Assembly (NCBI RefSeq): GCF_011297335.1
Contig: NZ_JAAOTJ010000004.1
Span: 62,001-126,000, forward strand
Origin: Catellatospora methionotrophica
Lineage (GTDB): Bacteria > Actinomycetota > Actinomycetes > Mycobacteriales > Micromonosporaceae
Length of the DNA: 64,000 nucleotides
Direction: 5' to 3'
The position numbers and the translations under genes were made by a program. The notes beneath the pieces are model-generated. The model worked only from the letters and a program-made list of their open reading frames with translations. It made no database searches and was not told where the DNA came from. Positions 50,665 to 59,925 of the stretch are shown in pieces. Position 1 is the stretch's first letter; the number at the start of each line of letters is the position of its first letter.

Positions 50665-51693
50665 ATGTCGGAACTGTCGAACCCCCACCTGGCCGAGGCC
50701 GGGCTGCTCGACGAACCCACCACCGCCGACCTGCATGCGAAGGTCACCGAGGCCTGGCGGGAGTTCGCCCGAGCCCTGGCCGCGGCCCTGCCCACGCTGC
50801 CCGTCGGCACCGAACTGGAACTCGCGCTCGACCCGACCGCGTCGGGCACCGGCTCCGCCGTGTACGGCGTGAGCGTGGAGTGCGTGGAGGACGGGTCGCT
50901 GCAGGCGCGGGCGGTCAGCAACGCGAACCTGCCCGAGGGCTTCCGGCTGGAGCGGACCGCGATCGCGGCGATGGTCGCGCTGGGCTGGTCGCCGCCGGGC
51001 GTGCTGGCCGGGTCGCGGGAGAACTTCGGCACCACCGGGGCCGCGGACGCGCTGGCCGGAATGATCACGCGAACGCTGCGCGACGTGTACGGCGCACCGC
51101 ACCCCGCGTTCCTCGTCTACGAGGCGCACGACCGCGAGGAGGAGCCGGTCGCCATCGAGCCGCTGGGCACCGCGCGGCACGAGTCGACGGTGGACGCGTT
51201 CCTGCCCTCGATCGACTCCCTCGACGCGAGCGGGCTGGACCTGGCCGACCGGGTGCGGATCGTGGTCTCCGCGATGCTCAAGTCCGACCCGGACGAGCTG
51301 CAGGTGGACGGCGACGGCGACATCGGCATCCGGGCCGGTTCGGCGATGGTGTTCGTCCGCGTACGCGAGAATCCGCCGCTGATCGACGTGTTCTCGCCGG
51401 TGCTGACCGAGATCGAGCCGACCGAGAAGCTGTTCGTGAAGCTGTCCGACCTGACCAACCGCATGCCGATCGGCCGCCTCTACTGCACCGCCGGCACGGT
51501 CTGGGCCTCGATCCCGGTGTTCGGCCGCGACTTCCAGGCCAGCCATCTGGCCCTGGCGATCCAGGTGATGACCGGGCTCGCCGACGAGCTGGACGACCGC
51601 CTGCACGGCGAGTTCGGCGGCAAGCGCTTCTTCGGCGAGGGCGACAAGTCCGCGGCCAGCACCCCCGAAGCTCGCATCGGCCAGTACCTCTGA
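50665..51693 (+). CDS. YbjN/TY-Chap-like protein with proteasome-type GQYL C-terminus
   Basis: 342 residues. The N-terminal part (1-150) and the C-terminal part (about 185-330, SAMVFVRVRENPPLIDVFSPVL, ASIPVFGRDFQASHLALAI) resemble YbjN / type III chaperone-like (TY-Chap) folds, considered peptide-binding chaperones. The final residues read PEARIGQYL, identical in the last four to Bpa (55430-55960) and to mycobacterial Mpa and Bpa, where GQYL docks into the 20S proteasome. ATG 50665 has GAGGAGG upstream. No adjacent protease gene. The proteasome link is inference. Confidence 0.8.
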   Translation: MSELSNPHLAEAGLLDEPTTADLHAKVTEAWREFARALAAALPTLPVGTELELALDPTASGTGSAVYGVSVECVEDGSLQARAVSNANLPEGFRLERTAIAAMVALGWSPPGVLAGSRENFGTTGAADALAGMITRTLRDVYGAPHPAFLVYEAHDREEEPVAIEPLGTARHESTVDAFLPSIDSLDASGLDLADRVRIVVSAMLKSDPDELQVDGDGDIGIRAGSAMVFVRVRENPPLIDVFSPVLTEIEPTEKLFVKLSDLTNRMPIGRLYCTAGTVWASIPVFGRDFQASHLALAIQVMTGLADELDDRLHGEFGGKRFFGEGDKSAASTPEARIGQYL

Positions 51694-53608: not shown

Positions 53609-54040
53609 TCAGTCGACCAGGCGGGACAGGACGATCATGCTGCGGGTGCTGGTGATGAACGGCTCGGCCCGCAGCCGCTCCAGGGCCTGCTCCAGGTGCG
53701 AGATGTCGGCCGCGCGCAGGTGCACCAGCGCGTCGGCCTCGCCGGAGACGGTGTACGCCCCGACCACCTCGGGGTGGCGGCGGGTGGCCATCGTGATCTG
53801 CGCGGGCGTGGTGCGCCCGGTGCAGAACAGCTCGACGAAGGCCTCCGTGCCGCCACCCACCGCCGCCGGATCCACGACGGCGGTGAAGCCCTTGATCACC
53901 CCACCGGAGCGCAGCCGGTCAACGCGTCGCTTGACAGCTGGTGCTGACAGCGACACCACCATGCCGATCTCGGCGTACGTGGTGCGCGCGTCGCTCAAGA
54001 GCGCGGCGATTATTCGCTGGTCAACGTCGTCCAACTGCAC
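53609..54040 (-). CDS. Lrp/AsnC family regulator
   Basis: 143 residues from GTG 54040. The N-terminal helix-turn-helix (about 4-60, LDDVDQRIIAALLSDARTTYAEIG and SAPAVKRRVDRLRSGGVI) is joined to a RAM ligand-binding domain (about 65-140). Lrp proteins respond to amino acids and wrap DNA as octamers. The start overlaps the stop of the solute-binding lipoprotein gene by one base (TAGTG), a coupled pair. This suggests a shared ligand, though that is inference. Confidence 0.85.
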   Translation of the reverse strand: MQLDDVDQRIIAALLSDARTTYAEIGMVVSLSAPAVKRRVDRLRSGGVIKGFTAVVDPAAVGGGTEAFVELFCTGRTTPAQITMATRRHPEVVGAYTVSGEADALVHLRAADISHLEQALERLRAEPFITSTRSMIVLSRLVD

Positions 54041-55236
54041 TACCCGAGGGTAGCGAGGTCGCTGATCAGCACGTTCGACAGGATGGGGCCGTCCTTCTCC
54101 ACCTTGCGCAGATACCACTTCTGCTGCGGGGAGCGCTGCTGGTTGAACTGCCAGTTGCCGCGGGGGCTGATCACCTGGCCGACGCTCGACAGCAGGGTGT
54201 TGACCTTCGGGGCGCTGAGCGTGCCGTCGCCGGCGAGCGTCAGCGCCTGGTCGAGCACCGCGGCGGCGTCGTACGCGGCGACCGCGAACGCCGTGGGAGA
54301 GCGCTGGAACTTGGCCTGGAACAACGACGAGAACGTGTGGTTGGCCAGGTTGTTCAGGTCGGCGGAGTAGTGCATCGCGGTGAACAGCCCGCGCGCGCCC
54401 TCGCCGAGCTCGTCGAGTGCCTTGCCCTCGGCGATCGAGCCGGGGGCGTACAGCTCGACGTCGCTGCCGGGGGTCAGCCCGGCCTGCTTGAGCGCGGCCA
54501 TGAACTTGGTGATGTGCGAGCTGGGCAGGTTGCAGAAGATCGCCCGCGGGTTCTTGTCCGCGATCTGCCCCGCGTACGACGCGTAGTCGGCGGTGGCCGG
54601 CTTGATGCCGGACTTCACCGTGATGGGCTCCTGCGCGCCGTTGCCGTACACGCTGGTGAAGCCGAGCATCAGCTCCGCGCCCGCGGTGCCGGGCACCGTG
54701 ATGAGGCTGACCTTGCCGCTGCCGTTGCCGAGCCGCCGCCGCAGGTAGTGCGCGATGGCCAGGGCCGGCTCGTCGGTGAGGTATGACGTGCGCCAGATGT
54801 ACGGGGCGCTGGGCATCTCGGCGGGCGAGGCGTGCGCGGCCAGCAGCGGCACCTTGGCCTCTTCGACCCGGTCGCGGATCGCGGGCAGCAGGTCCGGGTT
54901 GGCCACGCCGACCACGGCGAGCACCTGGGCCTTGTACAGGTCTTCCAGTGCCGCCGCGCCGCTCTTGGTGGTCTCGCCCTCGTCGGCCATCTCGATGCGC
55001 ACCGCGCGGCCGCCGAGCTTGCCGTCGTGCAGGTCCAGGTAGAGCTTGAAACCCAGTTCGAGGTCGGCGCCGACCTCCTTGTTCGCTCCGGTGGCCGGGA
55101 CGAGCAGACCGATGCTGACGCCGCTGCGCTCGCTGCTCGTGCCGGGGCTGGAGCAGCCCGCGAGGCCGCCGGTCACGCCCGCAACGCCAGCGCCGGTCAG
55201 CAGACCGAGCAGCTTGCGACGGTCAAGGCCGTCCAA
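54040..55236 (-). CDS. Branched-chain-type solute-binding lipoprotein
   Basis: 398 residues. Tat-like signal with RRKLLGLLTG and lipobox LAGC (Cys near 27). The mature part is a type I periplasmic-binding fold: SIGLLVPATGANKEVG, DLHDGKLGGRAVRIEMADEG, VLAVVGVANPDLLPAI and LYAPGSIAEGKALDEL. The family binds amino acids or similar for ABC uptake, but no permease or ATPase gene is adjacent, so it may be a sensor or use distant partners. TTG 55236 is chosen with GGAGG six bases upstream. Confidence 0.85.
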   Translation of the reverse strand: MDGLDRRKLLGLLTGAGVAGVTGGLAGCSSPGTSSERSGVSIGLLVPATGANKEVGADLELGFKLYLDLHDGKLGGRAVRIEMADEGETTKSGAAALEDLYKAQVLAVVGVANPDLLPAIRDRVEEAKVPLLAAHASPAEMPSAPYIWRTSYLTDEPALAIAHYLRRRLGNGSGKVSLITVPGTAGAELMLGFTSVYGNGAQEPITVKSGIKPATADYASYAGQIADKNPRAIFCNLPSSHITKFMAALKQAGLTPGSDVELYAPGSIAEGKALDELGEGARGLFTAMHYSADLNNLANHTFSSLFQAKFQRSPTAFAVAAYDAAAVLDQALTLAGDGTLSAPKVNTLLSSVGQVISPRGNWQFNQQRSPQQKWYLRKVEKDGPILSNVLISDLATLG

Positions 55237-55429
55237 TGTGTCCTCCAGGGTGACTTCGGCCGGACGCGCGTACCGGTGGCACGGCCGTGGGGGTGACGCC
55301 AAAGATGTGGGCGCGCGGTCTTATGACCCACTGTGGCGTTCTACCGTGTCCCGGCACTCCCGTCAATGATCAACATAGGCCCGCGTCTCGGGATCTAGGA
55401 TGGGTGGGTTCGACGCTGAGGAGGTCGTG

Positions 55430-55960
55430 GTGAGTCAGCAGCATCCCGAGGAGAAGAGTGTCGTGGTCGTCGGTCCGGACGGGCAGCCCATCGGCACGGT
55501 CGAGGTCAATCATGACGGTGCCATCGGGGGTGAGGAGGACCCGGGCCGTCTCATCGAGCAACCCGCCAAGGTCATGCGGATCGGTAGCATGATCAAACAG
55601 CTGCTCGAAGAGGTGCGCGCGGCACCCCTGGACGAGGCGGGCCGCCAGCGCCTGGTGGAGATCCACCGCCGCTCGATCGTCGAGCTGGAGGACGGACTGT
55701 CCCCCGAGCTCCGCGACGAGCTGGAGCGGATCTCCGTCGACTTCACCGAGGGCGCCACGCCGTCGGAGTCGGAGCTGCGCATCGCGCACGCCCAGCTCGT
55801 CGGCTGGCTGGAAGGCCTCTTCCACGGCATCCAGGCCGCCCTGGTGGCCCAGCAGATGGCCGCCCGCATGCAGCTGGAGCACATGCGCAACATGCCGGCC
55901 CTACCCCCCGGCACCCACCCCGACCCCACCAAATCCACCAGCACCGGCCAATACCTCTAA
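55430..55960 (+). CDS. bpa: Bacterial proteasome activator Bpa (PafE)
   Basis: 176 residues. VMRIGSMIKQLLEEVRAAPLDEAGRQRL, SIVELEDGLSPELRDEL and ELRIAHAQLVGWLEGLFHGIQAALVAQQMAARMQL form the helical ring-forming core. The C-terminus TSTGQYL is the HbYX-like motif that opens the 20S gate. Bpa is an ATP-independent activator that feeds unfolded proteins to the proteasome. GTG 55430 is chosen with GAGGAGG upstream; ATG 55400 is in frame but would put that site inside. Confidence 0.92.
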   Translation: MSQQHPEEKSVVVVGPDGQPIGTVEVNHDGAIGGEEDPGRLIEQPAKVMRIGSMIKQLLEEVRAAPLDEAGRQRLVEIHRRSIVELEDGLSPELRDELERISVDFTEGATPSESELRIAHAQLVGWLEGLFHGIQAALVAQQMAARMQLEHMRNMPALPPGTHPDPTKSTSTGQYL

Positions 55961-59095: not shown

Positions 59096-59824
59096 TCAGT
59101 TGCCGAGCAGACCGCCCAGCACTCCGCCCTGTTGCTGCTGCTGGCCGCCCGCGATGCCCGCCGGGGGCTCCTCGGACGGCTGCACCACGACGAAGCCCTG
59201 GCCCTGGAAGCTCATCGTGAACGCCTCACCCGTGCTGCGGCCCAGCAGGGTGCCGATGCCGAGCTGCTCGGCGCGGTGGTAGCCGGTCTGCAGGTTGGCC
59301 GACCAGCAGATCGCCGCCTGGGGGTCGGCGTAGGTGGGGGCGTCGACGGTCAGCACGACCGGGGTGCCCTTGGTGGTGATGGCGATCCGGCCCTGGCCCG
59401 AGAAGACGCAGTTGAACAGGCCTGCCGAGGAGAACATGCCCATACCCTGGACCATCTTGATGTCGTAGTTCAGCGTCGACTCGAAGGCCAGCACGTTGGT
59501 GCCGTTGACGCTGAGGGCGTCGCCGGGGCCCAGGTCGATCAGGTGCACATCCGCAGCACGGTCGGCCAGGAACACGTCACCACGGCCGGACAGCTTCATC
59601 AGCGGTACGCCCTCACCGGTGATCTTGCTCTTGAGCCACTTGGCCGCGCCACCGGAACCTAGCGCCTGGAACTGCACCTGGCCCTGGTAGGCAACCATCG
59701 CGCCGGTGCGCGCCATGACCTCGCCGTTCAGCTCGATCTTCAGCATCTTCGAGTTCTGCAGCGTCAGACCAGGAGTCGTGGACTCCTTCTCGAGGTTCTC
59801 GGCAGCGAAGAGTGCGCTCTGCAT
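59096..59824 (-). CDS. AIM24 family protein
   Basis: 242 residues with the beta-helix-like repeats of AIM24: MLKIELNGEVMARTGAMVAYQG, VPLMKLSGRGDVFLADRAADVHLIDL, LNYDIKMVQGMGMFSSAGLFNCVFSGQG. The C-terminal 25 residues are Gly/Gln-rich. The family's role in bacteria is not known; mitochondrial members help membrane organisation. ATG 59824 has GGAGG eight bases upstream; the frame to 59905 does not. Confidence 0.88.
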   Translation of the reverse strand: MQSALFAAENLEKESTTPGLTLQNSKMLKIELNGEVMARTGAMVAYQGQVQFQALGSGGAAKWLKSKITGEGVPLMKLSGRGDVFLADRAADVHLIDLGPGDALSVNGTNVLAFESTLNYDIKMVQGMGMFSSAGLFNCVFSGQGRIAITTKGTPVVLTVDAPTYADPQAAICWSANLQTGYHRAEQLGIGTLLGRSTGEAFTMSFQGQGFVVVQPSEEPPAGIAGGQQQQQGGVLGGLLGN

Positions 59825-59925
59825 GTCGTCAGCCTCCATGAAAAACGGGGGTGGAGAAACGCACCGAGCGTAGTTGACCTGCACAAGAATGCACGTCGGC
59901 TTCACGACAGGCTTCGGCCTGCGGC

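Follow-up and report, generated by a model that had tools for sequence, protein, structure and literature searches.

A two-domain TY-Chap protein of Catellatospora with a conserved G[QM]YL end is a probable partner of the actinobacterial proteasome

P0001, a two-domain TY-Chap protein encoded in a 64,000-nucleotide stretch of Catellatospora methionotrophica DNA (hereafter the window), probably represents an unrecognised family of proteasome partners, as judged from its sequence and those of its orthologues. Its C-terminal tail is likely to dock on the α ring of the 20S particle, and we consider it reasonably probable that P0001-type proteins serve the actinobacterial proteasome as accessory factors, in which a client-binding fold with a tethered 20S-docking tail would hold or deliver clients. 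A sequence-only reading of the same DNA had proposed docking from the last residues, PEARIGQYL, ahead of a TGA stop. Translation of positions 50665–51693 agrees with that reading in coordinates, ending and stop: the protein closes with STPEARIGQYL, followed by TGA at 51691–51693. The YbjN/TY-Chap-like identity that it gave to P0001 also holds, since both domains lie well above the Pfam cut-offs of 27 (TY-Chap1, 146 bits; TY-Chap3, 93.6 bits). Among solved structures, the best match of the TY-Chap1 region in a profile search is the YbjN structure 2plg (E 0.0046). Pfam searches of P0001 up to E 0.1 gave no BPA domain (PF10759), no AAA+ ATPase domain and no PAC2-type domain (as in Pba1-Pba2 and PbaB); NCBIfam likewise gave no AAA+ ATPase domain and holds no model matching TY-Chap proteins of this kind.

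Table 1 Features of P0001 and its surroundings, with the loci behind two comparisons
Feature	Position or loci	Strand	Basis
P0001, two-domain TY-Chap protein, 342 aa, ATG start	50665..51693	+	translation, Pfam
TY-Chap3 domain, residues 29-150	50749..51114	+	Pfam PF22552, E 1.7e-26
TY-Chap1 domain, residues 192-324 (YbjN / type III secretion chaperone superfamily)	51238..51636	+	Pfam PF22551, E 6.5e-43
P0001 variable linker, residues 325-338	51637..51678	+	comparison of 80 orthologues
P0001 C-terminal tail GQYL (G[QM]YL in family; docking putative)	51679..51690	+	80/80 named orthologues
Bpa (bacterial proteasome activator, PafE), ends TSTGQYL	55400..55960	+	Pfam BPA E 2.3e-71
ARC and tailed TY-Chap in genus g114	L207, L209, L253-L257		
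Varied Bpa ends	L154, L170, L267-L288		

The tail is conserved wherever a close orthologue was found. We surveyed 61 genomes (own, genus, family and order), of which 35 gave a match and 33, the own genome included, held a close orthologue. The end is G[QM]YL in 33/33 of these, with 13 GQYL and 17 GMYL in 30 of them and GMYL in the other three. A set of named orthologues, the best 80 of 206 relatives and all from Micromonosporaceae, overlaps with the surveyed genomes, so that the two counts are not additive; here too every protein ends in G[MQ]YL (71 GMYL, 9 GQYL), and the penultimate Tyr and terminal Leu that mark GQYL/HbYX-tailed proteasome interactors are thus present in 80/80. Within these best 80 of 206, the closest relatives of P0001 are Catellatospora species (87–94% identity), and only the Catellatospora clade shows strict GQYL (Catellatospora itself, six; Allorhizocola, Rhizocola and Catelliglobosispora), the other genera reading GMYL. 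GMYL is a textbook hydrophobic-Tyr-X (HbYX) end. Two papers, both citing Jastrab 2015, report that the Q of the known factors is dispensable (PMC6017811 and PMC12288473, in excerpt). The sequence-only reading had made conservation of GQYL among homologues one test of its proposal; that expectation is borne out once GMYL is counted, and in its strict form it extends to 9/80 orthologues, those of the one clade.

The residues ahead of the tail behave differently from the tail itself. The linker, counted from the FFGE-type motif at the end of the TY-Chap1 domain, is 11–19 aa long and occurs in 57 distinct versions among the best 80 of 206. The 58 distinct stretches formed by the last 25 residues all share G, Y and L, with either M or Q at position −3, and an Arg six residues from the end (−6) is nearly fixed (57/58). 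Given the invariant G, Y and L and the nearly fixed Arg, the family end is best written R-x-G-[MQ]-Y-L, the R-x part being usual. At the DNA level the tail shows synonymous changes (GGC/GGG/GGT, TAC/TAT, CTC/CTG/CTA/TTG), and each of the three stop codons occurs. An end that stays fixed behind 57 linkers while its codons change silently indicates that selection acts on the tail peptide.

We compared this pattern with the other genes of the same loci. The 80 loci contain 1115 coding-like ORFs. A YL end closes 147 of them, 79 being TY-Chap and 68 Bpa, as against 0/968 of the others, counts that are not independent, since orthologues recur across the loci. C-terminal ends were also compared for 14 gene families over the 80 loci, 13 of which had enough loci. 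Fixed ends were found in TY-Chap (two endings in 80), in Bpa (GQYL, 75/75) and in MoaA (AIGG, 61/61), whose C-terminal end is functional; the end of a periplasmic binding protein is nearly fixed (ATLG in 57/64 loci), and the other nine families have varied ends. That the TY-Chap ending is a functionless coincidence inherited within one clade is extremely improbable and already contradicted by conservation. The narrow range of strict GQYL among the best 80 of 206 would suit such an origin, as would the frequency of HbYX ends, which make up 0.72% of bacterial proteins, mostly from proteasome-less species (PMC11475706, in excerpt). However, the tail is fixed over its many linkers with silent codon changes, none of the 968 control ORFs ends in YL, and tails are spread over nine families, two changes at least being forced on the tree described below.

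The raw number of GQYL-stop matches in DNA was rejected as evidence. The window contains two, against 0.02 expected from shuffles, and the genome three, which are the ends of three real genes: ARC/Mpa (on contig C14, named a proteasome ATPase by NCBIfam), P0001 and Bpa. A reversed control pattern gave seven matches genome-wide, so that the count in itself proves nothing; GMYL-stop was sought in the own genome and gave no match. The strong evidence for the tail is its conservation in orthologues rather than the GQYL-stop count, and with it the observation stands on firmer ground than the sequence-only reading had claimed.

The gene for Bpa lies downstream of P0001; its distance of about 3.7 kb and its GQYL end are as the sequence-only reading had stated. 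The further statement of that reading that the two genes do not form one operon is correct, because minus-strand genes separate them, encoding a beta-propeller protein, an AsnC-type regulator and a periplasmic binding protein. Upstream of P0001 is a DUF4192 gene (Pfam) in divergent orientation. In 75 of the 80 named loci bpa follows the TY-Chap gene within 10 kb, in 74 of them sharing its strand, and in the remaining five the contig ends 1.2–6.0 kb downstream of the TY-Chap gene, before any bpa. Three genomes (G014, G022 and G030) have the TY-Chap gene and bpa far apart, and the TY-Chap tail is still kept. Among the neighbours, the AsnC-type regulator gene (53612–54118 in the window) is present between the TY-Chap and bpa genes in 78/80 named loci and has the highest median identity of those measured (82%); its C-terminal end varies. 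No ADP-ribosylglycohydrolase was found among the tested neighbours of P0001.

The partner to which such a tail would bind is encoded in nearly all of these genomes. prcB scored above cut-off in 60/61 surveyed genomes, including the own genome (G000), in which prcA adjoins prcB, so that the host encodes a 20S particle; the nearest solved chain to the prcA product is 1q5q, from Rhodococcus. Bpa was found in 61/61. In 30 chosen genomes, ARC ends in GQYL in 28/28, whereas Bpa, present in 24, differs between families (GQYL in 10, GPYL in 8, GMYL in 5 and GQYI in 1); one Catellatospora Bpa (G008) ends in GPYL. Because Bpa orthologues themselves bear them, the TY-Chap variants GMYL and xPYL are natural ends of a known activator family. 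Docking is supported by the presence of prcB, prcA and an ARC ending in GQYL in the own genome, and by the finding that a hexapeptide with GQYL, at 200 µM, itself opened the gate and supported degradation (PMC10415612, in excerpt).

We searched for TY-Chap1 (PF22551) in 393 genomes of the class, of which 54 gave a match (66 rows), and read the ends of 65 rows, all except G352:C189. Twelve of the 65 end in YL (families f1, f24, f29, f32, f35 and f42), the endings being IGGYL, NGGYL, ASPYL, DGLYL and AGGYL in addition to GMYL and GQYL. In three further genomes the end is GMYL (f13), GLYL (f10) or tailless (f12). When orthologues were sought around f42 and f35, SPYL was met four times, EPYL once, GGYL once (f40), GLYL twice and GMYL once, three of these nine genes being already counted among the PF22551 rows; the remaining weak matches of these searches had no such YL end. 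Tailed TY-Chap1 proteins thus occur in nine families (f1, f10, f13, f24, f29, f32, f35, f40 and f42), eight of them beyond Micromonosporaceae, and the tail is borne by both two-domain and single-domain forms behind different linkers. On a tree of 48 TY-Chap1 domains (39 of the 65 read rows and nine others), the tail needs four changes, two of them forced by starred branches, compared with about 15.5 for shuffled labels; the 26 omitted rows, with partial, divergent or near-duplicate domains, are all tailless, an omission that biases the tree towards clustering. The tree is compatible with one origin of the tail as well as with several. Three Micromonosporaceae genomes (L176, L177 and L178) encode an additional TY-Chap1 protein, whose long C-terminal part has, on visual inspection, a repeat-like look; these paralogues carry other C-terminal extensions and no docking tail.

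The distribution is also patchy. Of the 26 other genera of Micromonosporaceae, each represented by one surveyed genome, five lack the gene: it is missing from the near-complete genomes G021, G023 and G024, all with prcB and Bpa, and from the less complete G012 and G015. Other families of the order have a close orthologue in 1/24 genomes, and single-domain tailed forms occur in 5/14 genomes of genus g114 (f42) and in 3/37 of f35. Presence or absence of the proteasome, a comparison proposed in the sequence-only reading, discriminates weakly, as prcB is carried by all but one of the 61 surveyed genomes. In prcB-positive genomes, 12/59 TY-Chap1 proteins are tailed and 47/59 tailless, as against 0/6 tailed in prcB-negative genomes, a difference that is not significant (about 0.28, one-sided). 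Outside the actinobacteria, a gammaproteobacterial TY-Chap3+TY-Chap1 homologue (28.6% identity over 71% of the query; L320:2851-3801, plasmid OZ026885.1 of Candidatus Methylocalor cossyra) stops shortly after the domain, without a tail; its host presumably has no proteasome. Transposase, recombinase, phosphohydrolase and HNH endonuclease genes are its plasmid neighbours. A phage or plasmid origin was considered and rejected: a search of viral contigs gave no relative, and the plasmid collection gave only this one tailless homologue.

Taken with the linkage to bpa in 75/80 loci, the tailless gammaproteobacterial homologue and the far-apart tailed TY-Chap1 lineages lend further support to the proposal that the tail docks on the proteasome, which is, at the level of sequence, well supported by strict conservation behind a variable linker and by variants matching Bpa ends. 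It is quite unlikely that the conserved tail binds something else, be it a different protease, a partner protein or, in auto-inhibition, the peptide groove of the protein itself. Self-binding would be possible in a family predicted to bind peptides (PMC9503650, in excerpt), and most TY-Chap1 proteins of prcB-positive genomes manage without a tail. However, GQYL, GMYL and xPYL are natural Bpa ends, and the recurrence of the tail after differing linkers, on proteins with one domain and with two, together with its absence from the gammaproteobacterial homologue, also speaks against another target.

Five genomes of genus g114 in f42 (G200, G276, G435, G480 and G484) encode ARC and a tailed TY-Chap and gave no Bpa match; prcB was checked in two of the five, G200 and G276. 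Bpa is said to occur in every proteasome-bearing actinobacterium (PMC8223512, in excerpt), with which these genomes sit badly. Because the tail is kept where the two genes are far apart and in the Bpa-less g114 genomes, the comparison indicates that the tailed TY-Chap is not simply dependent on Bpa.

On the accessory-factor reading, the tandem of two YbjN/type III secretion-chaperone-like domains would bind clients, as the fold family suggests: a resemblance to type III secretion chaperones is described for YbjN-type proteins (PMC5398634, in excerpt), and TY-Chap domains are predicted peptide-binding chaperones (PMC9503650, in excerpt). A flexible, variable tether would carry the conserved G[QM]YL end, and this end would, on strong sequence grounds, occupy the pockets that 20S α subunits form between them, in the manner of the ARC/Mpa and Bpa tails. 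P0001 might then hold clients at the α ring and deliver them without ATP, a role suggested by its fold family, and might conceivably help to open the gate without ATP, much as archaeal PbaB. PbaB is a non-ATPase chaperone that holds unfolded protein and, bound via HbYX ends, is a proteasome activator (PMC3605417, in excerpt), and on our best reading it would be the functional analogue of P0001.

A docked tail could also serve a different use. P0001 would then act like Pba1-Pba2, as a chaperone for assembly or for the gate, or would compete with ARC and Bpa and restrict their access to the α ring; this is the main rival, and we regard it as unlikely. Bacterial 20S is not known to need dedicated chaperones for assembly in vitro, and the absence of the gene from several proteasome-bearing relatives argues against an essential assembly role. 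In its favour, a single chain with two YbjN-type domains could take the place of a dimer, tailed TY-Chap occurs without any Bpa found in 5/5 f42 genomes, and HbYX-tailed chaperones of that kind exist in eukaryotes and archaea (PMC3605417, in excerpt). By analogy, client delivery seems the better of the two uses for a docking TY-Chap. Counting against the accessory-factor reading as a whole are the patchy distribution and the 47/59 TY-Chap1 proteins of prcB-positive genomes that are tailless, and likewise the number of tails, since known proteasome ring activators present 6 or 12 and a TY-Chap chain one.

P0001 shares features with several known systems and differs from each of them. Bpa/PafE resembles it in a variable linker that leads to a C-terminal G[QMP]YL, in the lack of an ATPase domain, and in place, given the spacing and linkage of the two genes; unlike P0001 with its two TY-Chap domains, Bpa is a four-helix protein that forms a twelve-membered ring (PMC10415612, in excerpt). 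Mpa/ARC has the same GQYL C-terminus in the same genome but is an AAA+ ATPase, whereas no ATPase domain was matched in P0001. Archaeal PbaB and eukaryotic Pba1-Pba2 (PAC1-PAC2) are, like P0001, non-ATPase proteins with an HbYX-type tail (PMC3605417, in excerpt); they belong to another protein family, to which P0001 has no Pfam match. TY-Chap1/TY-Chap3 proteins of the YbjN, type III secretion chaperone superfamily share both domains, but those described in excerpts of PMC9503650 belong to ADP-ribosylglycohydrolase conflict systems, with no proteasome tail mentioned there. Cpa, a Cdc48-like protein of actinobacteria, is a proteasome interactor, as we propose for P0001, but is an AAA ATPase without a GQYL/HbYX end (PMC6017811, PMC8223512 and PMC12288473, in excerpt).

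In excerpts of three sources, Mpa/ARC and Bpa are the only bacterial factors described with a GQYL end (PMC8223512, PMC12288473 and PMC6017811). Bpa was discovered by a scan for HbYX ends in the M. tuberculosis genome only (PMC4254994, in excerpt), and that scan may not have met the tailed TY-Chap family. For actinobacteria the ProEnd database gives a total of 982 HbYX proteins; YbjN is absent from the main text of that paper (PMC11475706), and the sequence may still be in its data tables. In the open-access journal literature searched, we found no link between TY-Chap/YbjN and the proteasome, and no third GQYL-type bacterial factor.

Tentatively, we suggest that TY-Chap proteins with G[QMLGP]YL-type tails could form a third class of docking factors, secretion-chaperone-fold adaptors feeding chosen clients to the 20S particle without ATP, with the tail fixed on the fold in several actinobacterial lineages, including one genus in which no Bpa was found. 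The routes by which substrates reach the bacterial proteasome without Pup are poorly known; if the suggestion is right, a widely kept chaperone-fold protein would provide a new and directly testable one, and bacteria, like archaea with PbaB, would have put the HbYX solution to use again on a new scaffold. The clients are perhaps damaged or ADP-ribosylated proteins, given the other contexts of the family. The motif to be searched for widens from GQYL to [G/S/E]xYL.

An AIM24 gene lies near bpa in the window (59099–59905), and in family f29 a tailed single-domain TY-Chap gene is close to an AIM24 gene (L205:3-1944). The closeness of AIM24 to the tailed TY-Chap in the one case and to bpa in the other may reflect an old shared neighbourhood.
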